Origin: an uncultured Syntrophobacterales bacterium
GTDB lineage: Bacteria > Desulfobacterota > Syntrophia > Syntrophales > UBA5619
Assembly: GCA_903928915.1 (NCBI GenBank)
Contig: CAIYSL010000127.1
Location: forward strand, 1-44,580
Length of the DNA: 44,580 nucleotides
Reading direction: 5' to 3'
Shown here: in pieces, positions 9,794 to 44,580 of the stretch
Layout: the number at the start of each line of letters is the position of its first letter
Numbering within the stretch: the first letter of the stretch is position 1
Notes under the pieces: generated by a model
Told to the model about the DNA's origin: nothing
What the model saw: the letters and a program-made list of their open reading frames with translations, nothing else
The model's database searches: none
Program-made: the position numbers and the translations under genes

Positions 9794-9872
9794 GGTCGGA
9801 CTCCGTGCCCAGAGGCGGCGGTAGCGCAGGTTGTGCGCAGATTTCCGCTCCGGTCTCCCTGCGCGGATTGGT

Positions 9873-15039: not shown

Positions 15040-15058
15040 GGTGTGGCCTCCTGTCTCA

Positions 15059-16027: not shown

Positions 16028-16352
16028 GGTGGATTCCTCGAAGCGTGTGATGTGGGAGAAAAAGCGCGCCGCCCGTGCCTCCGGGCAACCGTGCCGCACC
16101 TTATACCAGCTTTTCCCGGAACAGAAAATAAAAAAGAGAATCGCCCGGTCCTTCGTGCAGACGGGGTCGCCGTTGCCCGTTGGCCCGCACCCGTCGATCG
16201 CCCCGTCGCAACCCCGGGGGGGCCGGGTTGACATCCGCAGGCCCCTGTGGTAACCGCATAGCGTATTGCGTGAAGGTTTCCCCGGGCAAACGGCGCGGGG
16301 CTTTCGATCCCGAAGAAGAACGACCGATTCAAACAAACAGAGGTGACGACAC
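16028..16352. promoter_or_regulatory. Divergent intergenic region with candidate promoters
   Basis: A 325-base spacer between the minus-strand hydroxyacid operon and the plus-strand amidohydrolase/LytSR genes. No gene is supported. For the minus strand, TATAAG (complement of 16100-16105) is a good -10 without a good -35. For the plus strand, TTGACA at 16228-16233 is a perfect -35 but the hexamer 17 bases on (TAACCG) is poor. A short AT-rich patch (16126-16142) may mark an activator site. Confidence 0.4.
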
Positions 16353-25644: not shown

Positions 25645-25673
25645 GAGGTCACACCGGGGTCCGGTGTGACCTC
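25645..25673 (+). terminator. Hairpin downstream of gpmA
   Basis: A 13-bp perfect stem (GAGGTCACACCGG with its complement at 25661-25673) and a 3-base loop, without a T-tract. It may be a bidirectional or Rho-assisted stop, or a stabiliser. Confidence 0.5.
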
Positions 25674-25725
25674 ACTGCATCGGCGTGCGTGCCGGAATGA
25701 TGAACGTGCGCAGAGGAGGATGAGC

Positions 25726-26943
25726 ATGGCCGGGGAATTGCGGGGGATCAGGGTCGTCGAGGTGGGCGGGGCCGTGGCCGTTCCCGCCGTCGGGATGCTG
25801 ATGGGCAGCTGGGGCGCCGAGGTGATCCACGTGGAGCCGCCCGGCAAGGGCGACAACTGGCGGCATGTCCTCGGCCAGGGGATGGCCGGGTGGGCGAAGC
25901 CCAACCCCGTGAACTACGCCTGGGAGCATGTGGACCGGAACAAGAAAAGCCTCGCCCTGAACCTGGCCGCCCCGGAAGGGCAGGAGATCCTCCACCGGCT
26001 CGCCGCAACCGCCGACGTCTTCCTGAACAACCTGCGCCCCTACGAGATGGAGAAGTTCCGCCTCACCTACGGGGAACTCTCCCGGATCAACCCGCGGCTC
26101 ATCTATGCCAACCTCACGGGCTACGGCCGGCGCGGCCCCGAGAAGAACACCGGCGGGTACGACTCCGTCGCCTTCTGGGCGCGCAGCGGCGTGATGGACC
26201 TGATGCACGATCAGGGGGTCGCGCCCAACATCTCGCGGCCGGGGTACGGCGACAGCGTCACGGCGCTGAGCCTCTTGGCGGGCATCATGTCGGCCCTGTT
26301 CATCCGGGAGCGCACCGGCGTTGCCCAGGAGGTGGAGATATCGCTGTACAACACCGCCGTCTGGGTGCTGGGGTTCGACGTATCCGGCTGCCTGATCTCC
26401 GGCGAGGACGCCCTGCGGCCGCAGCGCAAGACGATGGGAAACCCGATCCGGAACGTCTACGAGACGGCCGACCATCGCTGGATCATGCTCGGAATGACCA
26501 ACGCCCAGCACTACTGGCCCGATTTCTGCGCGGCGATCGGCCGCCCGGAGCTCGAGCAGGACCCCCGGTTTGCCACCTACGCGGCGCGGGTGAAAAACGC
26601 CGGCGAACTCGTCGCCCTCCTGGACGGCGTGTTCGGGAGCCGGAGCTACGCCGAATGGGTCGAGGCCCTGGCGAAGACCAGGATCGTCTGGTCCCCGGTG
26701 ACCACCCCGCTGGAGGTGACCCGGGACCGGCAGGCGCTGGAGAACGAATTCTTCCTGGACTGGGACCACCGCGAGTACGGTCCGATCAGGGTGCTCAACA
26801 ACCCGATCAAGCTGTCCGAGACCAAGGCCGAAAACACCCGGCCCGCCCCCCGGCTCGGCGAGCACACGGAGGAGATCCTGAAGGAGCTGGGGTACGGCGA
26901 GGAGGCCATTCAGGCCATGAAGGCGGCGGGCGCCGTCGGCTGA
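25726..26943 (+). CDS. CaiB/BaiF family (class III) CoA-transferase
   Basis: A 405-residue family III CoA-transferase moving CoA between carboxylates. The N-terminal GIRVVEVGGAVAVPAVGMLMGSWGAEVIHVEPP is the family signature. The catalytic nucleophile is Asp146 in NTGGYDSVAFWARSG, and the C-terminal domain includes SPVTTPLEVTRD. The start ATG at 25726 is seven bases after AGAGGAGG; the ATG at 25720 sits too close to that site. It lies 47 bases before a two-subunit class I fumarase, an arrangement that would suit activation of a C4/C5 dicarboxylate and hydration of an unsaturated acid such as fumarate, mesaconate or itaconate. The real CoA donor and acceptor are unknown. Confidence 0.93.
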   Translation: MAGELRGIRVVEVGGAVAVPAVGMLMGSWGAEVIHVEPPGKGDNWRHVLGQGMAGWAKPNPVNYAWEHVDRNKKSLALNLAAPEGQEILHRLAATADVFLNNLRPYEMEKFRLTYGELSRINPRLIYANLTGYGRRGPEKNTGGYDSVAFWARSGVMDLMHDQGVAPNISRPGYGDSVTALSLLAGIMSALFIRERTGVAQEVEISLYNTAVWVLGFDVSGCLISGEDALRPQRKTMGNPIRNVYETADHRWIMLGMTNAQHYWPDFCAAIGRPELEQDPRFATYAARVKNAGELVALLDGVFGSRSYAEWVEALAKTRIVWSPVTTPLEVTRDRQALENEFFLDWDHREYGPIRVLNNPIKLSETKAENTRPAPRLGEHTEEILKELGYGEEAIQAMKAAGAVG

Positions 26944-26990
26944 GGCCGGGCGAAGCGGTCCGGCCAGCCGGAGTGGGAGGGCGGAGTGCG

Positions 26991-27836
26991 ATGCGGGAGA
27001 TCGATGCGAAGCGGGTGACGGAAACCGTCTCCGAGCTCCTCCGGGATGCCTGTTACCGCCTCCCCGCGGATGCGCTCGGGGCCCTCCGGGCGGCGCTCCA
27101 GGGCGAGCAGGCTCCCGCCTGCCGGGGCGTCCTGGCGGGGCTGATCGAAAACGCCGAAATCGCCGCGGCCGGCGCAATCCCGCTCTGCCAGGACACGGGC
27201 ATGGCCGTCGTGTTCCTCGAGCTGGGGCAGGACCTGCACGTCCTCGGGGGCGACCTGGAGGAGGCCGTCCAGGAGGGGACGCGCCGCGCCTATGGCGAAG
27301 GATACCTCCGCACGTCCGTGGTGGCGCGCCCCTTTTCGGCGCGCACGAACACCCGGGACAACACGCCGGCGGTGATCCACACCACCATCGTCCCGGGCGA
27401 GCGGCTGAAGATCACGGCGCTCTCCAAAGGGTTCGGGAGCGAGAACATGAGCCGGCTGGCCATGCTCACCCCTGCTGCGGGCAGGCAGGGGGTCGTCGAC
27501 TTTGTCGTGCGGTGCGTCGACGAGGCGGGCGCCAACCCCTGCCCCCCCGTCATCGTCGGCGTCGGGATCGGGGGGACCGCGGAGAAGTGCATGCTCCTGG
27601 CCAAGCGGGCCCTGCTGCGCGGGGTGGGGCTTCCCCATCCGGACCCCGAAGTCGCCGGCCTCGAAGCCGATCTGCTGACGCGGGTGAACGACCTGGGGAT
27701 CGGGGCGATGGGGTACGGGGGCAGGGTCACGGCGCTGGCGGTCCATTGCGAGGTTTTCCCCACCCACATCGCCAGCCTGCCGGTGGCGGTCAACCTGCAG
27801 TGCCACAGCGTCCGGCACCGGGAGGCGGTCCTCTGA
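26991..27836 (+). CDS. Class I fumarate hydratase-type alpha subunit (fumarase/mesaconase/tartrate dehydratase)
   Basis: A 281-residue iron-sulfur hydro-lyase subunit equal to the N-terminal half of FumA. The three [4Fe-4S] ligands are visible: Cys66 in PLCQDTGMAV, Cys184 in NPCPPVIVGVGIGG and Cys271 in NLQCHSVRH. The motifs RPFSARTNTRDNTPAVIH and ALSKGFGSENMS are typical of TtdA/FumA. The ATG at 26991 has GGAG at suitable spacing. The beta subunit follows after 29 bases. The split form acts as fumarase in many bacteria, but mesaconase and L(+)-tartrate dehydratase are close homologues, so the substrate is not settled by sequence. Confidence 0.92.
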   Translation: MREIDAKRVTETVSELLRDACYRLPADALGALRAALQGEQAPACRGVLAGLIENAEIAAAGAIPLCQDTGMAVVFLELGQDLHVLGGDLEEAVQEGTRRAYGEGYLRTSVVARPFSARTNTRDNTPAVIHTTIVPGERLKITALSKGFGSENMSRLAMLTPAAGRQGVVDFVVRCVDEAGANPCPPVIVGVGIGGTAEKCMLLAKRALLRGVGLPHPDPEVAGLEADLLTRVNDLGIGAMGYGGRVTALAVHCEVFPTHIASLPVAVNLQCHSVRHREAVL

Positions 27837-27865: not shown

Positions 27866-28483
27866 ATGGAGCGGGGCCCGATGAGACCGCGGCGCCTGGC
27901 GCTGCCGCTGTCCGCTGCCGTGGTCGAGACGCTGCACGCCGGCGACGAGCTGCTGCTGACCGGGCCCGTGCTTGTGGCGCGCGATGCGGCCCACAAACGG
28001 ATGGCCGAGGCCCTCGGCCGCGGGGAACCGTTGCCCGTTGACCTGGCAGGACAGGCGATCTACTTCATGGGGCCGACGCCTGCCCGGCCGGGAAGGCCGA
28101 TCGGCTCGGCCGGGCCGACCTCCAGCTACCGGATGGACGCCTACACCCCCGCACTCCTGGCGGAAGGGCTCAAGGCGACGATCGGCAAGGGGCCCCGCTC
28201 ACCGGAGGTGAAGGAGGCGCTGAAGCGGTTCCGGGCGGTGTACCTCGGCGCCATCGGTGGCGCCGGCGCCCTGCTCTCCCGGTGCATCAAAGAGGTCGCA
28301 GTGGTCGCCTACGACGATCTGGGACCGGAGGCCCTGCGCAGGATCGTGGTGGAGGATTTCCCCGTTACGGTGATCAACGATATCCACGGCGGCGATCTGT
28401 ACGACCAGGGGCGGCTGCGGTACCGGCGTGCCGACCCTGCGTCCCCCGTTGCTCCCGAAACAAACACGACCCCCTCCCCGTAA
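27866..28483 (+). CDS. Class I fumarate hydratase-type beta subunit
   Basis: A 205-residue partner equal to the C-terminal half of FumA. GPTPARPGRPIGSAGPTSSYRMD and LKATIGKG are the conserved core, and AVVAYDDLGPEALRRIVVEDFPVTVINDIHGGDLY closes the domain; these residues bind the substrate carboxylates. The C-terminus is slightly extended and Pro-rich. GGAGGGAGGAG precedes the ATG at 27866. Together with the alpha subunit it completes the hydratase. A GC-rich hairpin with one bulged base follows directly after the stop (28484-28504). Confidence 0.92.
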   Translation: MERGPMRPRRLALPLSAAVVETLHAGDELLLTGPVLVARDAAHKRMAEALGRGEPLPVDLAGQAIYFMGPTPARPGRPIGSAGPTSSYRMDAYTPALLAEGLKATIGKGPRSPEVKEALKRFRAVYLGAIGGAGALLSRCIKEVAVVAYDDLGPEALRRIVVEDFPVTVINDIHGGDLYDQGRLRYRRADPASPVAPETNTTPSP

Positions 28484-29413: not shown

Positions 29414-30061
29414 CTATTCCCCGACGACGGGGAGCTTGATCCCCTTGGGGCAGAGCGAGGGGAGCAGCTCCCGGAAGGTCCGCATCCCTGCGGCGGTGAG
29501 TCCGGCAAGTTTCAGCCGCTGCGCCCCCAGGGCGTCGCGGGGGTCGACGGCCAGCCGGAGGTTCTTCACCAGGGCGGCGGGGGTGGCACTGCCGGCGGGC
29601 GGCAGTTCGGCGTCGCAGACGCCGCAGAGGATGCAGGTTGCGGGGGACTCGATCCGCGCCGCATCCTCGGGGGAGACCAGGCCGGCATGGTCCGGCAGGG
29701 TGATCACCCAGGGGACCACCCGGTTCAGGGCAGCGAAGAAAGGGTCCATGTCCGCAACCAGGTCCCTGAGCTGCCGGAATCCCCTGAGCGGTCCGATGCT
29801 CAGGATGTCCCCGTCCGCGGCCACCTCCCGCACGAGGGTCTGGCAGGCCAGCCGGCTGCGGTCTCCGATCTGCACCGCGCAGGAGCCGCAGATACCGCTG
29901 CGGCAGGAGCGCCTAAAGGCGAGGGAGGGGTCCTGCTGCCGCGCCCTGATCAGCAGGTCGAGTACGGTTTCGTGCCGCTCCCAGTCGACCGGGTATGCCT
30001 GGGGCGCGGGGTTCGCGTCGGTCTGCGGGTCGAACCGGCTGATGTTCAGGGTGAGCCGCAT
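29414..30061 (-). CDS. Succinate dehydrogenase/fumarate reductase-type Fe-S subunit lacking the [3Fe-4S] ligands
   Basis: A 215-residue electron-transfer subunit. The N-terminal ferredoxin domain keeps Cys53, Cys58, Cys61 and Cys73 for [2Fe-2S]. The C-terminal domain keeps Cys143, Cys146 and Cys149 and the distant Cys204 of LCPKGI, which correspond to the four [4Fe-4S] ligands. The three positions that should hold [3Fe-4S] are Leu153, Arg194 and Leu200, judged against the intact SdhB at 39570-40313. The quinone-proximal cluster is therefore absent, and the protein is about 30 residues short. Its start is the ATG at 30061, one base after the flavoprotein stop. No membrane anchor gene is adjacent. 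It is probably a soluble or differently coupled oxidoreductase. Confidence 0.9.
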   Translation of the reverse strand: MRLTLNISRFDPQTDANPAPQAYPVDWERHETVLDLLIRARQQDPSLAFRRSCRSGICGSCAVQIGDRSRLACQTLVREVAADGDILSIGPLRGFRQLRDLVADMDPFFAALNRVVPWVITLPDHAGLVSPEDAARIESPATCILCGVCDAELPPAGSATPAALVKNLRLAVDPRDALGAQRLKLAGLTAAGMRTFRELLPSLCPKGIKLPVVGE

Positions 30062-30062
30062 C

Positions 30063-31745
30063 TCAGTACCCCCTTTCCTGGGGCGGGAACCGGGTGATGC
30101 TGACCGGGCCGGCCTCGTACACTGCCCGCCCGTCGGCACCCCGGCGGGCCAGCGTGTGGTGCAGCCAGCGGGCGTCGTCCCGGTGCGGGTGGTCCAGCCG
30201 GTAGTGGGCGCCCCGGCTCTCGGTGCGGCGAAAGGCAGCCCCGGCGGTGATCTCGCCGAGCTCCAGCAGGCAGCCGAGCTCCAGGTGTTCGATCAGTTCG
30301 GTGTTGAAGGGCCGCTCCCCGGGGGAGAGCCGCAGCGCGTCGTACCGGGTACGCAGGGCCGCCAGCTCCGCCATTGCCTCGCCGAGCTCCTCCCCGGTGC
30401 GGAACACCCCCACTTTGTCGGTCATGGTGCGATTCAGGGCGTCGCGGATGGCGGCTGCCGAGTCGTCCGGGTGCCGCGGGCCGGCGGAGAAATTTGCCTG
30501 CCAGCGGCCCAGGGCGTCCGCGAGCGAGGCGCGCGGGGGAGGCGGCAGGGGCCGGCCGGCCGCGGCCTTTCCCAGATGCCTGCCCGCCCGGCGGCCGAAG
30601 ACCACCGTTTCCAGCAGCGAGTTGCCGCCCAGGCGGTTGGCCCCGTGGACGCTGACGTTGGCCGTCTCGCCGGCGGCCAGGAGCCCCGGGATGGTGGTTT
30701 CGCAATCCAGGTTCACCCTGATTCCGCCCATGCTGTAGTGCTGGGCGGGCTCGATCGGAATCGGCTCCCGGACGGGATCGACCGCCGCGTACCGGTGCGC
30801 CAGTTCGGTGATCTGCGGGAGCTGGCGGAGGATCTTTTCGCGGCCTAGGTGGGTGAGGTCGAGGTTGACGGAGCCACCGTCCAGCCCCCGCCCTTCCTTG
30901 ATCTCCTGGAAGATCGAACGGGACACCACGTCCCGGGGTGCCAGTTCCATCTTCTGCGGGGCATAGCGGTCCATGAACCGTTCCCCCGCGGCGTTGCGGA
31001 GGTAGCCCCCCTCTCCCCGCGCGGCCTCTGAAATCAGGATGTTGCTGCCGGTGAGGGTGGTGGGGTGGAACTGGACGAACTCCATGTCCGCGAGCACGGC
31101 CCCTGCCCGGTAGGCGACGGCCGTGCCGTCCCCGGTGTTGGAGTGGCCGTTGGTGGTCTTCTGAAAGATCCGGCCGTAGCCGCCGGCGGCCAGCAGCGCC
31201 ACCCGGCAGCGGACCACCTCCAGCCTGCCCGTAGCCAGGTGGTACAGCAGCAGCCCCGCCAGCGCCCCCTCTTCGATGAGGATCTCCACCAGGTGCCACT
31301 CGGGGTAGAGCCGCACCCCGGCGGCCAGGGCGCGTTCGTACAGGGTGTGCAGGACCACGTGGCCGGAGATGTCGGCGGCGTAGCACGCCCGGGGAAAGCC
31401 GGCACCCCCCAGGGAGCGCTGGGCCGGCCGGCCGTCGGGCCGCCGGGACCAGGGGACCCCCATCCGATCCAGGCTGCGGATGACCTCCGGCCCCTCGGAA
31501 CAGAGCACCTCGACGGCGTCCTGATCCCCCAGGTAGTCGCCCCCCTTCACCGTGTCGAAGATGTGGGCTTCCACCGAATCGTCCTCCCCCAGTGCGGCGT
31601 TGAACCCGCCCTGGGCGGCCCCGCTGTGGGAGCGGGTGGGGTAGATCTTGCTGAACAGGGCCACATCCAGCCCGGGCGGCGCCTCGCAGGCGGCCATCAG
31701 CCCGGTCAGCCCTCCGCCGACGATCACCACGTCATGAAACAGCAT
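30063..31745 (-). CDS. Succinate dehydrogenase/fumarate reductase-type flavoprotein subunit (second copy)
   Basis: A 560-residue FAD subunit that interconverts a succinate-like and fumarate-like pair. [10 protein letters not shown] starts the FAD fold, and His40 in [10 protein letters not shown] is the covalent flavin attachment site. QFHPTT holds His227, APRDVVSR holds the proton-shuttle Arg271, QHYSMGGI holds His336 and [11 protein letters not shown] holds Arg371, so all known catalytic residues are present. It is closely similar in layout to the SdhA at 40338-42041 but is clearly diverged. It is coupled to the altered Fe-S subunit (one-base gap) and lies 98 bases downstream of a TRAP permease gene, which suggests oxidation or reduction of the imported dicarboxylate. 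Confidence 0.93.
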
Positions 31746-31843: not shown

Positions 31844-33805
31844 TTACCTGACGGGCTCGGACTCCAGTTCCCCCCGCGGCGGTGCGACCCGCCGATGGCA
31901 TTTGACCCCGTAGATCGTCGCCGGCAGCACGAGGATGGCCAAAAGCAGAGCGATGGTGCCGTTCGGGTGGAACAGCACAGTAAACGAGCCCAGGGCCAGC
32001 GCCGCCCGCAGCATCACGTTCGCGCCCCAGGTGCGGGTGAACTGCCCGAAGATGGCGAAGGCGATGCCGCAGCAGGCGATCGCCACCAGGAGCATGTCCC
32101 CGATCTGCGACCAGCCCGGGTTCACCACAAGGTCGGTGCGGACGAAGATGGCGAAGGTCATGATCGTCACGGGCAGGCACAGTTTCAGGGCATTCCACAT
32201 GGTGTGCATGAACGAGGCCTCGGCGATCCGCGCCGAGACCGCGGCGGTGAGCGAGGTGGGCGGCGACAGCTCGCCCCAGACGGCGATCAGGAAGGCGAAG
32301 AAGTGGGCGACCCAGGGGTCGATGCCGAGCTTGCGCATCGGGTCGACGATGATGACCGCCAGCACGATGTAGGTCGCCGTGGGCGGCAGTCCGGTCCCTA
32401 CGAGCCAGCCGAACACAAAGGCCATCAGGACCAGGGCGATGACGTGCCACTCGCCGACGCGCAGCATGATCGCACCCATCCGGTTGATGAACCCGGTCAC
32501 GGTGAACAGGCCGATCATGATCCCGAGCGTGGCCAGGAGCAGCAGCAGGTAGGAGGTCATCTCGGCGTGGATCTCGACCATGGTGCGGATGTTCGCGAGG
32601 AGCGACTCCTTGCCCGTCGCCGGGTCCCGGCGTGCGTGCTTGAAGAAAAGGTACAAGAGGATCAGCAGGCCGAACATGAAGGCCCCGGTGTACAGCCCCG
32701 CGAGCTGCTCGCCGTAGTTGAGGACCCCCATCAGAATGGTGAGGAAGATGATCCCGATGAAGAAGATCGCCGTCTTGAGCTGATCGTAGACCGGCTGGGT
32801 CGACCCCTCGATCGGCGTGCCGGGCATCGTGCTTACGCTCATCAGATACACCGCCAGCGAGAGGGTGGAATAGTAGATGAAGGCCAGGGCGAACCCGCGC
32901 AGCACCACGCTCCAGTAGGAGACGCCCAGGAACTCCGCCATCACGAACCCGGCCACCGCCATCACCGGCGGCATGATCAGCCCCCCCATCGAAGCCGCGC
33001 ACTCCACGGCACCGGCGAACTCGCCCGGGACGCCGTAGCGTTTCATCAGCGGGATCGTGAAGGCGCCCACCACCGTGGCGTTGGCCGCGCCGCTGCCGCT
33101 GATCATGCCGACGGCGGAGGAGGCCAGGACCGCCGTCTGGGGGATCGTGTGCCGCGACTTGCCGGCGATCCGCCGCATGAACGCGACCATCGCCCCCTGG
33201 GCATCGAACCCGCTGGCCGCCGCCGCCAGGAGCAGAAATGCCGCGATTGTCACCAGGGCGATCTGGGAGTACTGGCCGTAGATACCCGTCGAGAGCTCGA
33301 CGGTGCTCGAGGTGATCACCCGGTAGAAGGAGGTCCCGGGATGCCAGAAGAAATCGAGCGGGCTCAGATAGCCCCAGAGGGTGTACACAATCAGGACCAC
33401 GTTCATCCAGAACAGCTCCGCATGCTCGACTCGGGAGAGCTCCATCACCAGCAGGAAGACCAGGAGCCCCATGACGAAGTCCTGGGTGGTGTAGGATCCC
33501 TGCCGGTAGATCGAGATCTCCTCGTACTCCATGTGGAAATGGTAGAAGGCGTAGCAGCAGACCGCCAGGTAGACGATCACGATCAGGTGATTGGCGATCG
33601 GCGGCAGCCCTTTGTAGATGAACCCGTTCTTGTGCATGTGCAGGATCCGCACCATCAGGGCGACCGGCACGAGGTTCGCCGCCAGTTCGGTCGGGCCGCC
33701 GTAGCCGGTGTAGAAGTACCAGCAGAGCCAGACGAACAGGAAGGTTGACAACAGGAAGATCAGATTCTGAAGATTGGCGTGGCGCATGATCCGGTCATTC
33801 AGCAT
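31844..33805 (-). CDS. TRAP transporter fused permease (4TM/12TM)
   Basis: A 653-residue permease in which DctQ-like and DctM-like parts are one polypeptide, the form that partners with TAXI binding proteins. The N-terminal quarter has four helices, including LIFLLSTFLFVWLCWYFYTGY. The DctM-like part includes ASSAVGMISGSGAANATVVGAFTIPLMKRYG, GLIMPPVMAVAGFVMAEFLG and GTGLPPTATYIVLAVII. The C-terminal extension has further helices. The start ATG at 33805 follows AAAGGGGGG. The TAXI receptor gene is upstream on the same strand. Uptake of a small carboxylate driven by a cation gradient is known for the family; the substrate is not readable. Confidence 0.95.
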   Translation of the reverse strand: MLNDRIMRHANLQNLIFLLSTFLFVWLCWYFYTGYGGPTELAANLVPVALMVRILHMHKNGFIYKGLPPIANHLIVIVYLAVCCYAFYHFHMEYEEISIYRQGSYTTQDFVMGLLVFLLVMELSRVEHAELFWMNVVLIVYTLWGYLSPLDFFWHPGTSFYRVITSSTVELSTGIYGQYSQIALVTIAAFLLLAAAASGFDAQGAMVAFMRRIAGKSRHTIPQTAVLASSAVGMISGSGAANATVVGAFTIPLMKRYGVPGEFAGAVECAASMGGLIMPPVMAVAGFVMAEFLGVSYWSVVLRGFALAFIYYSTLSLAVYLMSVSTMPGTPIEGSTQPVYDQLKTAIFFIGIIFLTILMGVLNYGEQLAGLYTGAFMFGLLILLYLFFKHARRDPATGKESLLANIRTMVEIHAEMTSYLLLLLATLGIMIGLFTVTGFINRMGAIMLRVGEWHVIALVLMAFVFGWLVGTGLPPTATYIVLAVIIVDPMRKLGIDPWVAHFFAFLIAVWGELSPPTSLTAAVSARIAEASFMHTMWNALKLCLPVTIMTFAIFVRTDLVVNPGWSQIGDMLLVAIACCGIAFAIFGQFTRTWGANVMLRAALALGSFTVLFHPNGTIALLLAILVLPATIYGVKCHRRVAPPRGELESEPVR

Positions 33806-34111: not shown

Positions 34112-35155
34112 TCACTTGCCGGCGATCGTCCACTTGTCGTTCCAGGCCTTCTGCTCCTTGAGGAACTTCGCCAGTCCCGCATGGACCGGAATGGTCGGGT
34201 TGGCGTTGATCCCGTTGACCTGCATGCCGACGAAGTCGCGCGCCATCGGGCCGAACCCAGGATCGGCCTTGGCGAGGCCTTCCCGTTCCCTGTAGAACTT
34301 GCCCAGCATCTTGTAGATGACCTCCCCGGGCATGTCCGGACGGACGTTGTAGCCGAAGAGGATCGGCACGCCGAGGATCGTCTTCACCCCCACGTCCTTG
34401 CTGAAGGCCTGCTTCGGGTCGATCTCCACGGGGGCGAGACCTGCTGCCGTCAGCTTTTTCACCTCCTCCGGGCTGGGGTTGATGATCCTGAGGTCGATGC
34501 GCAGCTCGGTCTCCCGCCAGTAGGAGGCGAGTGAACGGCCGGCGGTGGTGTAGGCGCAGGCGCCGACGATGGTGCCGGCCTGGAGGGCATCGCCCTGGGC
34601 CGCCTCGCCGATCTGGACGTGCTTGAACTGATAGCCCAGCGTCTTGAAGATGCGCTGGAAATTCAGCCAGTTCATGAATCCGGCGGGGGTGAAGAAGACC
34701 GGCTTGCCGCTGAAGTCGCCCCAGGACTTGAACTGGCCCGCCTTGGGGGCATAGACGGCCATGAACGACTCCATCGGGTAGGCATACCAGGTATGGACCA
34801 TCTTTGCCTTGGTAGGGGCGAAGTCCTTGAACCCGCCGGTCCCTTCGTAGACTTGTGTCATCCCCACGTCGGCGGTGTAGGCGATCTCCCCTTCGCCGTT
34901 CATCGTCGCCTTCATGGCGGCGGTGGTCGAGGGGTAGGGGTTGACCGTGACGGTGTATTCGCCGCCGAGGGCATCCTCCAGCACCTTGGTCATCTGGGCG
35001 GCAACCTTGTAGCCGTAGGAACCGGTGCTGGACGTGGCCCAGCGGATCGATTTGCGCTCTGCTGCGGAGGCGGGGTTGAGCGCCGAAACGGCGAAAAGAG
35101 TGGCGAGGAGCGCCACTGCTGCTGCAAACGTACTCTTGGATCTTCTCTGTGACAT
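34112..35155 (-). CDS. TAXI-family TRAP transporter solute-binding protein
   Basis: A 347-residue periplasmic receptor. A Sec signal peptide (basic RRSKSTFAAAVALLATLFAVSALNPASA, cleavage near residue 30) is followed by the TAXI N-terminal motif IRWATSSTGSYGYKVAAQMTKVLED and the ligand-region TMNGEGEIAYTADVGMTQVYEG. The ATG at 35155 has AAGGAGGGG upstream; longer in-frame starts have none. It pairs with the fused permease at 31844-33805. It has its own promoter-like sequence (35228-35256), allowing high expression apart from mmgE. Known TAXI ligands include glutamate and 2-oxoglutarate-like compounds; the ligand here is unknown. Confidence 0.93.
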   Translation of the reverse strand: MSQRRSKSTFAAAVALLATLFAVSALNPASAAERKSIRWATSSTGSYGYKVAAQMTKVLEDALGGEYTVTVNPYPSTTAAMKATMNGEGEIAYTADVGMTQVYEGTGGFKDFAPTKAKMVHTWYAYPMESFMAVYAPKAGQFKSWGDFSGKPVFFTPAGFMNWLNFQRIFKTLGYQFKHVQIGEAAQGDALQAGTIVGACAYTTAGRSLASYWRETELRIDLRIINPSPEEVKKLTAAGLAPVEIDPKQAFSKDVGVKTILGVPILFGYNVRPDMPGEVIYKMLGKFYREREGLAKADPGFGPMARDFVGMQVNGINANPTIPVHAGLAKFLKEQKAWNDKWTIAGK

Positions 35156-35227
35156 CGTTTCCCCTCCTTTGATTGCATTCATCGGAACGTTGTCGCTGAT
35201 AAAGAACGAAAGGTGCGTGTGCAAAAA

Positions 35228-35348: not shown

Positions 35349-36716
35349 TCACTTTCCTGATATCGGGTGCATGATTTCCGCCACCGACTGCGCCGTGTGC
35401 ATTGCCCGCAGCCGGGCGAGCGACTCGTCGACCGCGGCCGGGGAGAGGGCTCGGGATGCGCAATCCCGGTACTTGGCGGTGAACTCCTCGTCGCTGAGCG
35501 GGTTCGTGGGCATCCCCCGGGCGACGCTGGCCGTCGCGCTCCGGGTCTCGCCGGTGCCAAGGGTCACGGTCACGCTCTTGGTGCCGAACCCTTCCGGGGT
35601 GCCCATGACCGGCAGGGGAAACTGTTCCACCCACCGCATCGTTTCGATCAGGCGCCGTACTGCGGGCTCCCGCACCGCCTCGTCGGTGAAGTGCCTGAGC
35701 CGGACCTCTCCCGAGAGGAGGGCGCGGGCCACGCAGTACTCCAGGCTGAACTTGCCTTCCAGGCCGGTTTGCGGCCGGTGGTGGATGAGCAGTTGGCAGT
35801 CGAAGGGGCTCGTCCCCAGCTCGATCGCGGCGATCCGCTCGGCCGTGATCCCCTCCCGGGCGATCGTCAGGGCGCAGTCTATCGCGGTGTGGGTGAACCC
35901 GCAGGAGGGATACGGTTTGATGGCGATGCCCACGGGGCCGGCGATGACATAGGTCTTCCCCAGGTCCCGGCCCACCCCGGACCAGTCGATCTCGCCGGTG
36001 TGTCCCATCACCCGGGCAAACCCCAACGGCGCTTCGATGATGCCTGCGTCGGCGGTGAACCCCGCTCGGGCCAGGAAGGCGGCCTGGATGCCGTTTACCG
36101 CCGCCCTGCCGGCGTGCAGCGGTTTGGTCATGGTGCCGAAATTCTGCCGGAGCCCGCAGGCCAGCGACGCGGCGATCCCGAGCGCCATCCGCACCTGGCC
36201 GGGGTCGAGCCCCAGCAGCCGCGCCGCGGCAGCTGCCGCTCCCAGGCTCCCGAAGGTGGAGGTTCCGTGCCAGCCCTGGACGTAATGGCTCTGAAACATC
36301 GGCTCCGCGACGCAGGAGGCGACCTCGTACCCCACCACGTACGCGGCGAGGGCTTCGCGGCCCGCCGTGCCGAGACCCTCGCCGAGGGCCAGAACGGCCG
36401 GGGCGAGGAACACCGAGGGGTGGGCGATCGGCGATACGGACATGTCGTCGTAATCCAGGGCGTGTCCCGTCGTCCCGTTGACGAGCGCCGCCATCTCGGG
36501 CGACGTCTCCGCATTGCCCGCGATGATCGTCGCCTCGGCTGCACCGCCCATCCGTTCGGCGTACCCCCGGATGATCCGGCCCAACTCCTCCCGGGAGCCC
36601 GCCACGGCGACGCCGACGAAATCGGTCATCCCCAGGAGCGCCTTGTCGAGCGCCTCCTGCGGGATCTCCTCCGTCCGGATCTGACTGACGAATTCGGCGA
36701 TTCTCTGGGTGACCAT
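35349..36716 (-). CDS. MmgE/PrpD family protein
   Basis: A 455-residue member of the family containing 2-methylcitrate dehydratase (PrpD), cis-aconitate decarboxylase and iminodisuccinate epimerase, all acting on polycarboxylates by proton abstraction without Fe-S clusters. Typical stretches are ALVNGTTGHALDYDDM, AYVVGYEVASCVAEP, HGTSTFGSLGAAAAAARLLGL and NFGTMTKPLHAGRAAVNGIQAAFLARAGFTA. The last is the family's active-site region with its conserved Lys/His. The ATG at 36716 follows GGAGG. It is the first gene of a leftward cluster with the TAXI-TRAP transporter and a flavoprotein dehydrogenase, so it probably acts on the imported acid. No prpB/prpC is present, so a methylcitrate cycle is not supported. 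Confidence 0.92.
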   Translation of the reverse strand: MVTQRIAEFVSQIRTEEIPQEALDKALLGMTDFVGVAVAGSREELGRIIRGYAERMGGAAEATIIAGNAETSPEMAALVNGTTGHALDYDDMSVSPIAHPSVFLAPAVLALGEGLGTAGREALAAYVVGYEVASCVAEPMFQSHYVQGWHGTSTFGSLGAAAAAARLLGLDPGQVRMALGIAASLACGLRQNFGTMTKPLHAGRAAVNGIQAAFLARAGFTADAGIIEAPLGFARVMGHTGEIDWSGVGRDLGKTYVIAGPVGIAIKPYPSCGFTHTAIDCALTIAREGITAERIAAIELGTSPFDCQLLIHHRPQTGLEGKFSLEYCVARALLSGEVRLRHFTDEAVREPAVRRLIETMRWVEQFPLPVMGTPEGFGTKSVTVTLGTGETRSATASVARGMPTNPLSDEEFTAKYRDCASRALSPAAVDESLARLRAMHTAQSVAEIMHPISGK

Positions 36717-36779
36717 GGCTATCCTCCGCTGACAACCCGGTGAGACTCCGCCCGGCGGTGCGGGCGGGTATGCACTGTC

Positions 36780-36809
36780 ATTGTACTGCCTTCCGGCAGC
36801 GCGGGTCAA
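36780..36809 (-). promoter_or_regulatory. Sigma70-like promoter for the MmgE/PrpD gene
   Basis: On the minus strand: TTGACC (36804-36809), 18-base spacer, TACAAT (36780-36785), about 63 bases upstream of the ATG. Both boxes match five of six consensus positions. Confidence 0.65.
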
Positions 36810-37091
36810 GCCGCGGTGCGGGCGGGCGATCACTCGGATTACCCGCGAAGATCAGCCTCGTCGCGCGCATACATCGTTTCGCCCGCCAAATCCTCCGGAC
36901 CGCGCTGCCGGAGGCGTCTGCTCAGTCAAAGTGAGTCACTGCCGGCGGTCGTCCCCGGCGGGACATCCGCAGACCGGCCCGGGGAGGGGGTAAAGTTTCC
37001 GCGGATTCTGCCGATACTGCAGAGGAGGGGGTGCGTATGCCCGAAGTCGCGCCGGCATTCCCGCGCCCTCCTGTCGGAATTCCTGTGGCGG
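36810..37091. other. Divergent spacer before the TPR gene
   Basis: No gene supported. AGAGGAGGGGG at 37020-37031 is a strong ribosome-site-like sequence followed by an ATG at 37037 that is out of frame with the TPR protein. No good plus-strand promoter was found. Confidence 0.4.
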
Positions 37092-38057: not shown

Positions 38058-39122
38058 TTAACTGAAAAATCCCACCGCCGTCATCGCGAGGAAGTACACC
38101 AGATACAGCACGCCGATCCAGGTGAACAGCGGGCTCTTCTCGCCCCGGCTGGACTTCTTGTCGAGAAAGGGGATGAGGAAGAAGAAGAGGATCAGCGCGG
38201 TCACCACGACGATGGCGATCGTCTCTCCGTTCATGCCCAGGATGACGCCGGGAAACAGCTTCAGGGTCTGCATCAGGAACAGGAAATACCACTCGGGCTT
38301 GACGTTTTCCGGCGGCGGGGCGAGCGGGTCGGCCTTCACGCCGATCTCCGGCGGCAGGAACACCGCGAGCGTCGCGAGGATCCCCGTGATCACCAGCCAG
38401 AGCGACAGGTCCTTGTACAGCATGTTCGGGAAGAAGGGGACCTCCCGCCGTTTTTCCCCGGCGAGCGACAGCGGCACGCTCATCCCGTGGTACTGGACCA
38501 GCAGGACGTGCAGGCCGATCAGCCCCAGGGTGATGATCGGGAGGATGGCCACGTGGAAGGCGTAGAAACGGATCAGGGTGTCGCCCGTCACGTCCATGCT
38601 GCCCCGGAGGAACCCCTTGATGAACCAGCCGATGAAGGGGAAGGCGCCTGCCCCGCCGGTGGCCACCCGGACCGCGGCAAAGGCGCGTTCATCCCAGAGC
38701 AGCAGATAGCCGCTCAGACCGAAGAAGATCGAGATCCCCAGGAGGATGAACCCGGTCACCCAGACGAACTCCCGGGGCTTGCGGTAGGACTTCATCAGCA
38801 GAGTGCCGAACAGGTGGATGAACAGAAACACGATCGCCAGCTGCGCGCCCCAGTGGTGGCAGGAGCGGAAAAACCACCCCATGTTCAGTTTCGTGACGAT
38901 CTCGATGATGCTCTTGTGGGCGAAGTCGATATGGGGGACGTAGTAGAAGGCCATCAGCATCCCCGTCAGGATCTGGACGATGAACAGGTACAGCGTGATC
39001 CCGCCGGTGTAGTACAAGAAGTCGTACCGGTGCTCGGGGATGAGCTTGCCCTTCGCCAGCCGCACCACCCCTGTCAGGTCGTAGCGCTCGTCCAGCCAGT
39101 CTTTAAGCCTTGGGCAGTTCAA
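38058..39122 (-). CDS. petB: Cytochrome b (b6-like, fused b6/subunit IV form)
   Basis: A 354-residue di-heme membrane subunit of a quinol-oxidising complex. Heme ligands lie in SCHHWGAQLAIVFLFIH (helix B) and FHVAILPIITLGLIGLH (helix D). The helix D pair has 14 residues between the histidines, the cytochrome b6 spacing, not the 13 of mitochondrial cytochrome b. The Qo-site PEWY is present (KPEWYFLFLMQ). The Cys that binds the extra heme ci in b6f (in ITLTCFLVQ) is Tyr here. Translation appears to start at a TTG (39122): TGA lies two codons upstream in frame, and the gene overlaps the Rieske gene by 20 bases, so the two are coupled. Confidence 0.93.
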   Translation of the reverse strand: MNCPRLKDWLDERYDLTGVVRLAKGKLIPEHRYDFLYYTGGITLYLFIVQILTGMLMAFYYVPHIDFAHKSIIEIVTKLNMGWFFRSCHHWGAQLAIVFLFIHLFGTLLMKSYRKPREFVWVTGFILLGISIFFGLSGYLLLWDERAFAAVRVATGGAGAFPFIGWFIKGFLRGSMDVTGDTLIRFYAFHVAILPIITLGLIGLHVLLVQYHGMSVPLSLAGEKRREVPFFPNMLYKDLSLWLVITGILATLAVFLPPEIGVKADPLAPPPENVKPEWYFLFLMQTLKLFPGVILGMNGETIAIVVVTALILFFFLIPFLDKKSSRGEKSPLFTWIGVLYLVYFLAMTAVGFFS

Positions 39123-39573
39123 CCTTCACCCCCTTCTTGGCGATGATCAGCTTTTCCCCCTCTTCGCTGATCACGAAGATTTCGAGCGGTTTGGGGGGCG
39201 GCCCGGCGACGTTTGTGCCGTTCTCGTCGAACCATCCCTGGTGGCAGGGGCAGTAGAACCGCTTTTCCGCCGGCTTGTAGTCCACGTTGCACTCCATGTG
39301 GCTGCAGACGCCCTTGAGCGCCAGGATGGAGCCGTCGGCCTTCTTGAAGTAGAATCCCACGGTCCCGCCCCAGGGGAAGCGCTTGATCGAATTGTTCGGC
39401 AGGTCGAGAAAGTCCTTCCGGTTGAGGACGACGAAGTCGGGCTCCTTGCCCAGGGTGGGAAAGGCGAACCGCATCACGGCGAATACCGTGCCGGAGAAGA
39501 AGGCGACGAGCCAGCCGCCGAACAGCGTATTGAGAAAGGTCCTCCGCGTGACGAGCGAATAGTCGAGCTTCAT
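39103..39573 (-). CDS. petC: Rieske [2Fe-2S] iron-sulfur protein
   Basis: A 156-residue membrane-anchored Rieske protein that takes electrons from quinol bound to cytochrome b. The N-terminus has a twin-arginine motif (TRRTFL, residues 9-14) and a membrane helix. Cluster ligands are Cys90 and His92 (CSHMEC) and Cys108 and His111 (CPCH); Cys95 and Cys110 can form the structural disulfide. The CSHMEC box differs from the usual CTHLGC, with Glu in place of Gly, which may alter the cluster environment. It overlaps sdhB by ATGA and cytochrome b by 20 bases. Confidence 0.95.
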   Translation of the reverse strand: MKLDYSLVTRRTFLNTLFGGWLVAFFSGTVFAVMRFAFPTLGKEPDFVVLNRKDFLDLPNNSIKRFPWGGTVGFYFKKADGSILALKGVCSHMECNVDYKPAEKRFYCPCHQGWFDENGTNVAGPPPKPLEIFVISEEGEKLIIAKKGVKVELPKA

Positions 39574-40313
39574 GGTTCGCTTTTCCCCAAGAGCTTGTGG
39601 AAACGGTGTTTCAGGATCGCCTTCCGCAAGTCCACGATTCCGTCGGTGGGCCGGACCTCCTTCGGGCAGGCGTCGATGCAGCGAAACACCGTGTCGCAGG
39701 CCCAGACCCCCTTCTCGTCGTCGACGGTCTCCAGCGCCGCGCCGGGCCGCTCGTCCCGCGAGTCGAGGACGAACCGCGCGAGCTTGGCGGCTGCCGCCGG
39801 GCCCACGTACCCGGGCTCCCGCGCCAGGACCGGGCAGGCCCCGTAGCAGCAGGCGCAGAGGATGCAGTTGACGAACTGGTCGATCCGCTGGCGCTCCGCC
39901 TCGCTCTGGGGGATCTCCTTGTCGGGGACGGGGCTCTGCCGGATCAGGTAGGGCTGGATCTTCTCGTACATCTGCCAGAACGGGGTCAGGTCGACGACCA
40001 GGTCCCGGATCACCTCGAGATTGGGCAGCGGCTCCAGGATGATCGTGTCGCTCTCGAAGGTGGCCACTTGGGTCCGGCAGGCCAGGCCGATCTCTCCGTT
40101 CATGACCATGCCGCAGGAGCCGCAGACGGCCGACCGGCAGGAGGAGCGGAAGGCGAGCGTTCCGTCGAGCTCCTCGCGGATCCGCAGCAGCACCGTCAGC
40201 ACGGTCAACCCCGGGATGACGTTGATCCGGTAGGTTGCGAACCGGGGGGCGTTTCCCGGCTCGGCGGCGTCATACCGGAGGATCTTGAAGGTATATGCAC
40301 TGGCCTTGATCAA
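39570..40313 (-). CDS. sdhB: Succinate dehydrogenase iron-sulfur subunit
   Basis: A 247-residue subunit relaying electrons from FAD to quinone. All ligands are present: Cys59, 64, 67 and 79 for [2Fe-2S]; Cys150, 153, 156 and 216 for [4Fe-4S]; Cys160, 206 and 212 for [3Fe-4S]. This makes it a good reference for the altered copy at 29414-30061. The start codon is TTG at 40313 with GGGGAGG upstream; no ATG alternative fits. It lies 24 bases after sdhA and overlaps the Rieske gene by four bases, which directly links succinate oxidation to the cytochrome b complex. Confidence 0.96.
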   Translation of the reverse strand: MIKASAYTFKILRYDAAEPGNAPRFATYRINVIPGLTVLTVLLRIREELDGTLAFRSSCRSAVCGSCGMVMNGEIGLACRTQVATFESDTIILEPLPNLEVIRDLVVDLTPFWQMYEKIQPYLIRQSPVPDKEIPQSEAERQRIDQFVNCILCACCYGACPVLAREPGYVGPAAAAKLARFVLDSRDERPGAALETVDDEKGVWACDTVFRCIDACPKEVRPTDGIVDLRKAILKHRFHKLLGKSEP

Positions 40314-40337
40314 TACCCCTGCCTCCCCACTGAGTTC

Positions 40338-42041
40338 CTAGTACTTCCTCTCCTTAGGCTCATACCGCGTTATCGTCACCTCCTTGAAGGAGATGGCCGG
40401 TGAACCGTCGGACCCCATCCGGGCGATCGTGTGCTTCAACCAGTCCGCGTCGTTGCGGGTGTTGAAATCGAGCCGGAAATGGGAGCCCCGGCTCTCCTCG
40501 CGGAGGATGGCCCCCAGGACGATCGTATGGGCAACCTCCAGCATGTACCCCAGCTCCACGGCGCCGGTGAGCTCGTAGTTCATGTGCCGGGCCGCCGAGG
40601 TGACGCCGACGCTGCGGTACCGCTCCTTAAACTCGATCACCTTCTGCAGGGCCTGCGTCAGCTCTTCCCTGGTCCGGAAGATGCCCACCTTCTCGCTCAT
40701 CATGGCGCTCAGCTCCGCCTGGAGCAGCGCGGGCCGTTCGCTGCCGGGCGACGCCAGCTTCCGGAGCGTTCTCTCCACCTCCTCCTTCAGCTTCAGGAGG
40801 GCCCTCTCGTCGGGACGGCGCGTCCTCACCTCCGGGTCCTCGCCGATCGTCCGGGACGCCACCTTCCCGAACACGATCGTGTCGAGCAGCGAGTTGCCGC
40901 CCAGGCGGTTCGCCCCGTGGACGCTGACGCAGGAGCATTCGCCGCCGGTGTAGAACCCGCGGACCTCCGAGGCGCACCGTATGTCCACGTCGATCCCCCC
41001 CATCGAGTAGTGCTGGGCGGGCCGGATCGGGATCGGTTCGTCCACCGGGTCGACGCCGACGAAATCGATGCTGATCTGCCGGATGCCGCAGAGCCGCTCC
41101 TGGATCTTCTGCGCCCCCAGGTGCCGGAGGTCGAGCTGGATGTAGGTGCCCAGGGGGTGTTCGAACCCGCGCCCCTCGTTGATCTCCGTCTGGATGCACC
41201 GCGAGACGATGTCGCGGGGCGCCAGCTCCATCGCCGTGGGGGCGTAGCGCTGCATGAACCGTTCGCCCTGGTTGTTCACCAGGTAGCCCCCTTCACCGCG
41301 GCACCCCTCGGTCATCAGGATGCTCGTGCCGATCAGGCAGGTGGGGTGGAACTGGACGAACTCCATGTCCTTGAGCGGCGCGCCCGCGGCGTAGGCCATC
41401 CCGATGCCGCTGCCGGTGTTGATCAGGGCGTTGGTGGAGTGCTGGAAGACGCGGCCGTACCCGCCGGTGCCGAAGAAGGTCGTCCCGGCGGCCACGGGGA
41501 TCAACTCGCCCGTGCGCATGTCCAGGACGACGACGCCGTGGCACTGCCCCGCCTCGATGCTGAGCGCGGTGACGAACCACTCGGGGTAGATCTTGACCCC
41601 CTTGGCCACGGCCCGTTCGTACAGGGTGTTGAGCAGCACGTGGCCGGTGATGTCGGCGGAATAGCAGGTCCGGGGGTAGCCGGCGCCGCCGAAGGGGCGC
41701 TGGGCGATGGTGCCGTCGGCAAACCGGCTGAAGGGGCAGCCCCAGTGCTCCATTTCGTACACGATCGGCGCCGCCTCCCGGCACATCAGCTCGGCGGCGT
41801 CCTGATCGGCGAGATAATCGCTCCCCTTGACCGTGTCGAAGGTGTGCTTCTCCCAGGTGTCGTCGCGGCTGTCGGGGTTGTTGGCCAAGGGCGCGTTGAT
41901 CCCCCCCTGCGCGGCTATGGAGTGGGAGCGCGTCGGATAGACCTTGGAGACGAGCCCCACGTCGAACCGGTCGCACAAACCGACGGCCGCCCGAAGCCCC
42001 GTCAGACCGCCGCCGACGATGAGGATATCGTGCTTGATCAT
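40338..42041 (-). CDS. sdhA: Succinate dehydrogenase flavoprotein subunit
   Basis: A 567-residue FAD subunit oxidising succinate to fumarate. [14 protein letters not shown] starts the FAD fold. The covalent FAD His is in RSHSIAAQGGINAP, and [25 protein letters not shown] and [14 protein letters not shown] carry the remaining catalytic His and Arg. The ATG at 42041 overlaps the sdhC stop by one base (TAATG). It is part of sdhC-sdhA-sdhB, followed by Rieske and cytochrome b. The direction of the reaction (succinate oxidation or fumarate reduction) cannot be read from this subunit; co-transcription with a quinol-oxidising complex favours oxidation. Confidence 0.96.
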   Translation of the reverse strand: MIKHDILIVGGGLTGLRAAVGLCDRFDVGLVSKVYPTRSHSIAAQGGINAPLANNPDSRDDTWEKHTFDTVKGSDYLADQDAAELMCREAAPIVYEMEHWGCPFSRFADGTIAQRPFGGAGYPRTCYSADITGHVLLNTLYERAVAKGVKIYPEWFVTALSIEAGQCHGVVVLDMRTGELIPVAAGTTFFGTGGYGRVFQHSTNALINTGSGIGMAYAAGAPLKDMEFVQFHPTCLIGTSILMTEGCRGEGGYLVNNQGERFMQRYAPTAMELAPRDIVSRCIQTEINEGRGFEHPLGTYIQLDLRHLGAQKIQERLCGIRQISIDFVGVDPVDEPIPIRPAQHYSMGGIDVDIRCASEVRGFYTGGECSCVSVHGANRLGGNSLLDTIVFGKVASRTIGEDPEVRTRRPDERALLKLKEEVERTLRKLASPGSERPALLQAELSAMMSEKVGIFRTREELTQALQKVIEFKERYRSVGVTSAARHMNYELTGAVELGYMLEVAHTIVLGAILREESRGSHFRLDFNTRNDADWLKHTIARMGSDGSPAISFKEVTITRYEPKERKY

Positions 42042-42524: not shown

Positions 42525-43403
42525 CTATGTTTTCGCGGCGATGATCTCCCGGACGCGCCGGCCGATCTCGGCGGGGTTCTTCTCGACGGCGACGCCGGCC
42601 CGCTCCAGGGCCCGGAACTTCTCCTCGGCGGTGCCCTTCCCGCCGGAGATGATCGCCCCGGCGTGGCCCATCCGCCGCCCCGGCGGGGCCGTCCTGCCGG
42701 CGATGAACGAAACCACCGGCTTGCGCACGCAGTCCCGGATGAACTCCGCCGCCTCCTCCTCCGCGGTCCCCCCGATCTCGCCGATCATCACGATCGCCTC
42801 GGTCCCCGGGTCATCGGCGAACAGTGCGAGGATGTCGATGAACCCCGAACCGATGATCGGGTCCCCGCCGATCCCCACGGACGTGGACTGGCCGATCCCC
42901 AGCTCCGTCAACTGCCAGATCATCTCGTAGGTGAGGGTCCCGCTCCGCGAAACCACGCCCACCTTCCCCGCGCGGAGAATGAAGTTCGGGGTGAACCCGA
43001 TCTTGCCCACGCCGGGGGTCGCGATCCCCGGACAGTTCGGCCCGATCAGCCGCGAGCCCGATCCCTTCAGCGCCTGCTTCACCTTGACCATCTCCAGCAC
43101 CGGGATCCCTTCGGTCATGCAGACGATCAGCCCGATCCCCGCCTCGATCGCCTCGAGGATCGCATCGGGCGCGTACGCCGGCGGCGCGAAAATCCCCGAG
43201 ACGGTGGCCCCCTGCTTCTCCACGGCGTCGATCACCCGGTCGTAGACGGGGATGCCGTCCATCTGCGTCCCCCCCTTGCCGGGAGTAATCCCCGCGACGA
43301 CCCGGGTTCCCAGCTTCAGCGACTCGCGGGTGTGAAAGCTCCCCTCCGCCCCGGTGATCCCCTGAATGCAGACGCGCGATTGTGTGTCCAGCAGTATGGC
43401 CAT
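42525..43403 (-). CDS. sucD: Succinyl-CoA synthetase alpha subunit
   Basis: A 292-residue CoA-binding subunit of succinyl-CoA ligase (TCA cycle, substrate-level ATP or GTP formation). The N-terminal [34 protein letters not shown] binds CoA. The phosphorylated His247 is in [14 protein letters not shown], and GPNCPGI is conserved. The ATG at 43403 is 17 bases after the sucC stop; the open frame further upstream is shadow of sucC. The sdhC gene follows after 175 bases. Confidence 0.96.
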
Positions 43404-43420
43404 GGGGGTTCCCCTTCTTC

Positions 43421-44580
43421 TCAGCCGAGCAGCGCCACGGCCTTCTGGGCCGCCTCGTACAGCCCTTCGGCCACGGTGATGGGGAGGCCCGATTCCCTGA
43501 GCATCCGCCGCCCCTCCTCCACGTTCGTCCCCTGCAGCCGGACCACCATCGGTAGCTTCATCTCGATCTTCCCCGCCGCCTGGATCAGCCCGGCCGAGAC
43601 TCGGTCGCACCGGAGCACCCCGCCGAAGATGTTGATCAGGATGCACCGCACGTTCGGGTCCGAGGTGAGGATCCGGAACGCCTGTTCGATCTGATCCGGC
43701 GAGGCGCCCCCCCCCACGTCGAGGAAGTTCGCCGGCTCGCCCCCCGCCATCTTGATCAGGTCGAGCGTGGTCATCGCGAGCCCTGCCCCGTTCACCATGC
43801 AGCCCACGTTCCCGTCCAGCTTGATGTAGTTCACCGATGCCTCCCGGGCCAGGACCTCCAGCGGCTCTTCCTCGCCCGGGTCCCGCAGCTCGCCGATGTC
43901 CGGGTGGCGGTACAGGCCGTCGTCGTCGAAGGCGATCTTCGTGTCCAGGGCCACCAAGCCCCGCTCCGTGACCGCCAGCGGGTTGATCTCCACCAGCGAG
44001 CAATCCTTCTCGACGAACAGCCGGTACAGGTTCCGGCAGATCCCGGCGAACTGCTTGGCCTGCTCCGCGGCCAAACCCAGCCCTACCGAGAGCTTGCGCG
44101 CCTGAAAGGGGCTGAACCCCGCGACGGGATGTATCGCGCATCGGATGATCTTCTCCGGCGCCGCCGCCGCCACCTGCTCGATCTCCATGCCGCCCGCCTC
44201 CGAGGCCATGAACACCACGCACTCCCTGCCCCGCGAGCGGTCCACCACCAGGCTCAGGTACAGCTCCTTGGCCGGCGCGGAGGCCTCCTCCACGTGGACC
44301 CTGCGCACCTTCCTGCCCTCCGGACCCGTCTGGTGCGTCACCAGCTGCATCCCGAGGATCGCCCCGGCCGCCGCGTGGGCCTCCGCGGGAGAGGCGGCGG
44401 GCTTCACGCCGCCCCCCTTCCCCCGGCCGCCGGCGTGGATCTGCGCCTTGACCACGGTCCGGCCCGCAAGCTCCGTCGCGATCCCCAGCGCCCGCTCCGG
44501 CGTGGATGCCACCTCGCCGCGCGGTACCGCAATCCCGTAGTCCCGCAGCAGCTTCTTCGCCTGGTATTCGTGGATCTTCA
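43421..44580 (-). CDS. sucC: Succinyl-CoA synthetase beta subunit, lacking only the first base(s) at the window edge
   Basis: An ATP-grasp subunit of succinyl-CoA ligase. Typical stretches are [48 protein letters not shown] and [22 protein letters not shown]. At the right edge the frame reads [16 protein letters not shown], which is the normal SucC N-terminus. The last two window bases are the TG of what is almost certainly the ATG start, so only one base is missing. It is followed by sucD. Confidence 0.96.

Follow-up and report, generated by a model that had tools for sequence, protein, structure and literature searches.

Electrons passing through complex II reach quinone from the [3Fe-4S] cluster, the final one in the chain, and SdhB contacts the membrane anchor with its C-terminal part. 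Quinone-linked enzymes of this kind (classes A to F) are recognized by three Fe-S clusters together with a membrane or amphipathic anchor. The TfrAB thiol:fumarate reductase of methanogens is soluble and Fe-S-linked, and it does not use quinone. Syntrophobacter fumaroxidans FrdABEF, a class E enzyme (Sfum_4092-4095), has an FrdB for which only [2Fe-2S] and [4Fe-4S] motifs were described, a lack that FrdE and FrdF are thought to make up for (PMC3570798). Pelotomaculum thermopropionicum SDH2 (PTH_1492-1490) lacks a transmembrane subunit, and it was proposed to reduce fumarate in the cytosol with electrons received through the FrhB-like protein PTH_1492 (Kosaka et al. 2023, PMC10308238). NADH:fumarate activity in this organism was 35.7 mU/mg in the soluble fraction versus 5.7 mU/mg in membranes, values that belong to cell fractions and not to SDH2 itself, and the paper is silent on a missing cluster and on an MmgE/PrpD neighbor (PMC10308238). 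The subtype described here is therefore already partly known, with one member reported as a cytosolic fumarate reductase. A full-text search of mostly open papers returned no other soluble FrdB lacking [3Fe-4S] apart from the Syntrophobacter remark (PMC3570798), and the family-wide loss of the cluster and the metabolic gene neighborhood appear to be unreported in the open papers searched.

The stretch of DNA analyzed here (the window, 44,580 nucleotides) contains two genes of this type packed in operon style on the minus strand, one for an SdhB/FrdB-like Fe-S subunit with a clipped C-terminal tail (29414..30061) and one for an SdhA/FrdA-like flavoprotein (30063..31745). Both belong to the complex II superfamily by sequence, the Fe-S protein scoring 141.7 bits against TIGR00384 (SdhB/FrdB family, cut-off 88) and the flavoprotein 705 bits against TIGR01812 (SdhA/FrdA, cut-off 567). 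The 215-amino-acid Fe-S protein contains exactly 8 cysteines (53, 58, 61, 73, 143, 146, 149, and 204), and in alignments with the SdhB of E. coli and the window's own intact SdhB all of them fall at the [2Fe-2S] and [4Fe-4S] ligand positions. The 3 [3Fe-4S] ligands, E. coli C159, C206, and C212, are replaced by Leu153, Arg194 or Thr195, and Leu200; which residue stands opposite C206 depends on a one-residue gap and is immaterial. The absence of a ninth cysteine rules out ligands displaced to other positions in this protein. The claim of an initial sequence-only reading, that 8 ligands are kept and all 3 [3Fe-4S] positions changed, thus stands, with the one proviso that its Arg194 may be Thr195. 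From these ligands, the predicted cluster content of the enzyme is [2Fe-2S] plus [4Fe-4S]. AlphaFold models of the two subunits were poor (mean pLDDT 56 and 60, from alignments of 14 and 12 rows).

The same pattern, with 8 ligands kept and the 3 [3Fe-4S] ligands absent, was found in all 26 homologues examined from Desulfobacterota and Bacillota, setting the whole group apart from the three-cluster enzymes of classes A to F, while the nearest ordinary SdhBs retain all eleven ligands. In a tree with ordinary SdhBs, the two-cluster members form a single branch with an SH-aLRT of 100 and a long stem (two rows, L031 and L032, were set aside as the ordinary SdhBs of the same contigs, and the true members there were checked separately). 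Members of the branch also share a shortened loop, the distance from the CxxCxxC motif to the last cysteine being exactly 55 residues in the 23 measured versus 58 to 62 in ordinary SdhBs, and only 6 to 18 residues follow the last cysteine in these 23 versus at least 18, and mostly at least 22, in ordinary SdhBs. Values of dN/dS of about 0.1 to 0.3 in both subunits point to purifying selection. Homologues were sought in several sets of genomes: 5 of 21 genomes of the same family have one, including the window's own (71% to 73% identity), a scan of public genomes gave 13 loci in Bacillota and other Desulfobacterota (53% to 73% identity), and the gene occurs in 3/395 genomes in a sample of the phylum, again counting the window's own, and in 19/113 genomes of the class that holds Desulfofundulus. 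Syntrophales members, including that of the window, adjoin Peptococcaceae-type Bacillota sequences in the tree, a placement suggesting that the gene passed horizontally from one phylum to another.

The pair in the window has no anchor gene next to it, as had been noticed from the sequence, and none was found among the annotated neighbors across the loci of the clade, so the adjacent annotated genes offer neither the membrane nor the amphipathic anchor of classes A to F. Compared with E. coli SdhCDAB and FrdABCD, the clade has the same subunit fold families, catalytic residues, and first two clusters, but it lacks the [3Fe-4S] ligands and anchor genes and has a shorter C-terminal tail. We consider it likely that these genes encode a cytosolic, anchor-less SdhAB/FrdAB-type oxidoreductase for succinate, fumarate, or a similar dicarboxylate, with an electron wire that ends at [4Fe-4S] and a soluble redox partner. 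An active enzyme with a [4Fe-4S] exit that does not feed membrane quinone had been proposed at the outset, and conservation in 26 genomes, the single clade, purifying selection, and the clipped tail support it as the best reading.

Under this reading of a soluble oxidoreductase, electrons would move between FAD, [2Fe-2S], and [4Fe-4S], where the wire would stop, and the complex, having lost both the [3Fe-4S] cluster and the C-terminal tail, would meet a soluble redox partner, not quinone. The low-potential [4Fe-4S] exit would suit carriers at the level of NADH or ferredoxin, which would favor reduction of an enoate. We infer that enoate reduction is most likely the direction of the reaction and that the enzyme most likely operates in the manner of soluble fumarate reductases, although the SDH-type Gln45 of the flavoprotein argues mildly against a dedicated reductase. 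In the organism of the window the enzyme is probably soluble. It would resemble TfrAB in its way of working, as a soluble Fe-S-linked fumarate reductase without quinone, but the heterodisulfide-reductase-like part of TfrB is missing from the window protein, which scores 89 bits against the TfrB profile (cut-off 385 bits). The clade would then be a natural case of a complex II apparently unhooked from the quinone pool, with exactly the last cluster removed and the C-terminal tail clipped, and the role of the [3Fe-4S] cluster in the choice of electron partner becomes directly testable. It also carries a warning for annotation, since genes of the clade score as SDH/FRD but in syntrophs probably do not encode a membrane respiratory enzyme.

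A gene for an FrhB-like flavin/[4Fe-4S] protein lies directly upstream of the pair in Desulfofundulus, in Desulfovirgula thermocuniculi, and in genome G630. The earlier suggestion of a soluble carrier or partner is supported by this adjacency in several Bacillota and by the soluble NADH:fumarate activity of P. thermopropionicum (PMC10308238). G630 has FrhB, SdhA, and SdhB one after another at 1.556 Mb and a further SDH flavoprotein at 1.043 Mb; gene order and positions match strain SI, and the G630 member (L155), which falls in the two-cluster branch with the same ligand pattern, is almost certainly P. thermopropionicum SDH2. SDH2 and the window enzyme are alike in the absence of an anchor and in their ligands, and the cytosolic assignment of SDH2, with the FrhB-like gene directly upstream in G630, is in line with the reading given here. 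The window lineage differs in having no FrhB orthologue and a different set of neighbors, namely TAXI-TRAP genes, CaiB, and another MmgE/PrpD subfamily. The adjacent FrhB-like protein, ultimately linked to NADH, would probably serve as the partner in Desulfofundulus, Desulfovirgula, and P. thermopropionicum. This partner is not general, because no FrhB orthologue was found in the window's genome or in several other genomes of the clade, and FrhB was rejected as a universal partner. At one locus (L157), a gene for an NADH:flavin oxidoreductase-family protein with Oxidored_FMN and Pyr_redox_2 domains (14397-16328, minus strand) lies upstream of the MmgE/PrpD gene and is a candidate NADH-linked partner.

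The flavoprotein of the window retains His40 (FAD), Gln45, His227, Glu240, Arg271, His336, and Arg371, with Ser239 at the position of E. coli Thr254. Across 12 aligned members, the covalent-FAD His, the SDH-type Gln, and the catalytic His, Glu, Arg, His, and Arg are invariant. The sequence-only reading was right that these catalytic residues are kept, but it overlooked a change at E. coli Phe119, which we take from SdhA/FrdA structures to be a substrate-pocket residue: it is Leu in 12/12 clade flavoproteins (Leu112 in the window) and Phe in 15/15 ordinary SdhAs. The pocket has therefore probably been altered in the clade. In the well-covered part of the comparison with the 15 ordinary SdhAs, the fixed clade-specific substitutions are F119 to Leu, C391 to Asn, and E454 to Asp; the N-terminal part is covered by only three ordinary SdhAs.

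In the window, the pair ends a minus-strand run of MmgE/PrpD, TAXI, TRAP, SdhA, and SdhB genes. Upstream of the flavoprotein gene are a TRAP transporter fused permease (31844..33805), a TAXI-family TRAP solute-binding protein (34112..35224, start codon uncertain), and an MmgE/PrpD family protein (35349..36833, start codon uncertain), the last a probable functional neighbor with iminodisuccinate epimerase as its closest solved relative. Nearby on the plus strand are two possible pathway partners with uncertain start codons, a CaiB/BaiF type III CoA-transferase (25666..26943) and the alpha part of a class I fumarase/tartrate dehydratase (26910..27836), along with the fumarase beta part (27893..28423, the extent of the match and not of the gene). 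TAXI-TRAP genes, proposed earlier as a context that homologues might share, lie beside the pair in three Syntrophales loci only and were rejected as a family-wide context; broadly shared instead are MmgE/PrpD and CoA activation. An MmgE/PrpD gene is near the pair in 19 of the 23 loci with enough flank. These neighbors belong to two subfamilies that share only about 33% identity, so MmgE/PrpD may have become associated with the pair on more than one occasion, and CoA activation comes in two non-homologous forms.

The gene order in Desulfofundulus and Desulfovirgula thermocuniculi is sigma54 regulator, CitE-type lyase, SucC-like, SucD-like, MmgE/PrpD, FrhB-like, SdhA, SdhB, and DUF1847. The closest solved relatives of the Desulfofundulus-type lyase are CLYBL, a citramalyl-CoA lyase, and other CitE-like proteins, and those of the SucC-like subunit are succinyl-CoA and citryl-CoA synthetases. 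In genome G002, the pair has CaiB, MmgE/PrpD, and an aldolase of the DHDPS family in its vicinity. A cluster in G455 (L130, C41, 4265-16504) reads CitE, SdhA, SdhB, acyl-CoA dehydrogenase, 3-hydroxyacyl-CoA dehydrogenase, two CaiB genes, and a short-chain dehydrogenase, and looks like a catabolic cluster for some acid. The conserved neighborhood points to an assayable carboxylate pathway in anaerobes.

What the substrate might be is suggested by these neighbors. Fumarate is the simplest reading for the P. thermopropionicum enzyme. A tentative refinement of the soluble-oxidoreductase reading, possible but on balance doubtful, is that the enzyme acts specifically on a substituted form of the succinate/fumarate couple, methylsuccinate/mesaconate for instance, within an anaerobic pathway. 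The frequent MmgE/PrpD neighbor in two subfamilies, the CitE-like lyase nearest CLYBL and the SucC/SucD-like ligase of the Desulfofundulus operon, and the Leu at the pocket position of Phe119 all favor it, as do a proven MmgE/PrpD (S)-(R)-methylsuccinate isomerase clustered with a citramalyl-CoA lyase and the mesaconase activity of class I fumarase (PMC12290011). Perhaps, then, an MmgE/PrpD isomerase, the oxidoreductase, a class I fumarase acting as mesaconase, a CoA ligase or CaiB transferase, and a CitE-type citramalyl-CoA lyase could lead to acetyl-CoA and pyruvate, though we hold this sequence of steps only loosely. The methylsuccinate/itaconate cluster of Pseudomonas and Cupriavidus similarly brings together MmgE/PrpD, CoA activation, and a CitE-type lyase, but there an acyl-CoA dehydrogenase oxidizes methylsuccinyl-CoA, where the loci described here have an SdhAB-like pair (PMC12290011). 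Against a methylsuccinate/mesaconate enzyme, the known fumarate activity fits plain fumarate, and oxidation of methylsuccinate through a low-potential [4Fe-4S] exit would be energetically awkward. No CitE gene lies beside the pair on the window's contig, the best in the genome being 38% identical, and the SucC-like subunit also resembles citryl-CoA synthetase, so tricarballylate, aconitate, or citrate would fit as well. It is conceivable, with the same reservations, that the branch changed both substrate and electron partner and carries out the redox reaction in an anaerobic route, not yet described, that sulfate reducers and syntrophs of two phyla use for substituted succinates.

The soluble oxidoreductase also has to be weighed against a class E-like arrangement, in which an FrdE/HdrB-like subunit encoded elsewhere would supply the missing cluster and the contact with the membrane. 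Syntrophobacter FrdB offers a precedent, with two cluster motifs and FrdE/F thought to compensate, a likeness taken from the published description and not from sequence comparison (PMC3570798). FrdE and FrdF are, however, present in Syntrophobacter and absent from the clade neighborhoods, where no FrdE/FrdF-like or HdrB-like gene was found among the annotated neighbors, and we regard this arrangement as improbable.

More unlikely still is that the enzyme remains quinone-linked through an anchor encoded at a distance, such as the Rieske and cytochrome b proteins of the neighboring SDH. The window does have Rieske and cytochrome b genes on the same strand, some 6 kb upstream of the pair, but they come immediately after, and belong to, an intact SdhAB that keeps all eleven ligands and lies about 8 to 10 kb from the pair; the clade lacks both the last cluster and the C-terminal tail, and the Bacillota members and G002 have no Rieske/cytochrome b genes near the pair. 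This intact set (38058-42041, minus strand) is an ordinary SdhA-SdhB followed directly by Rieske and cytochrome b in place of SdhC/D, an arrangement kept in G010 and G018. In L014, L016, and L020, the open frame of SdhB continues into an apparent Rieske domain.

Decay or sequencing error has next to no chance of explaining the ligand loss and was rejected, for although the window comes from a draft genome of 141 contigs and the flavoprotein gene is interrupted in one homologue (L039), 26 genomes share an identical ligand pattern, including all three losses, under a dN/dS of roughly 0.1 to 0.3, which bears out the original argument that random decay would not produce it. The interrupted flavoprotein gene of L039 lies at 9136-9995, and an interrupted FrhB homologue occurs in Pelotomaculum propionicicum (G543, C150:11782-12980).

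Directly downstream of the Fe-S gene, a gene for a carboxymuconolactone decarboxylase-family protein of about 127 residues is present in related loci of Syntrophales, namely L036 (10747-11127), L034 (4778-5164), and L037 (1653-2033); none was found downstream of the window Fe-S gene. Elsewhere in the window, a listed frame at 42525-44222 (minus strand) has a SucD-like C-terminal half after about 270 residues without a Pfam match, and probably represents a SucD gene whose start was placed too far upstream.
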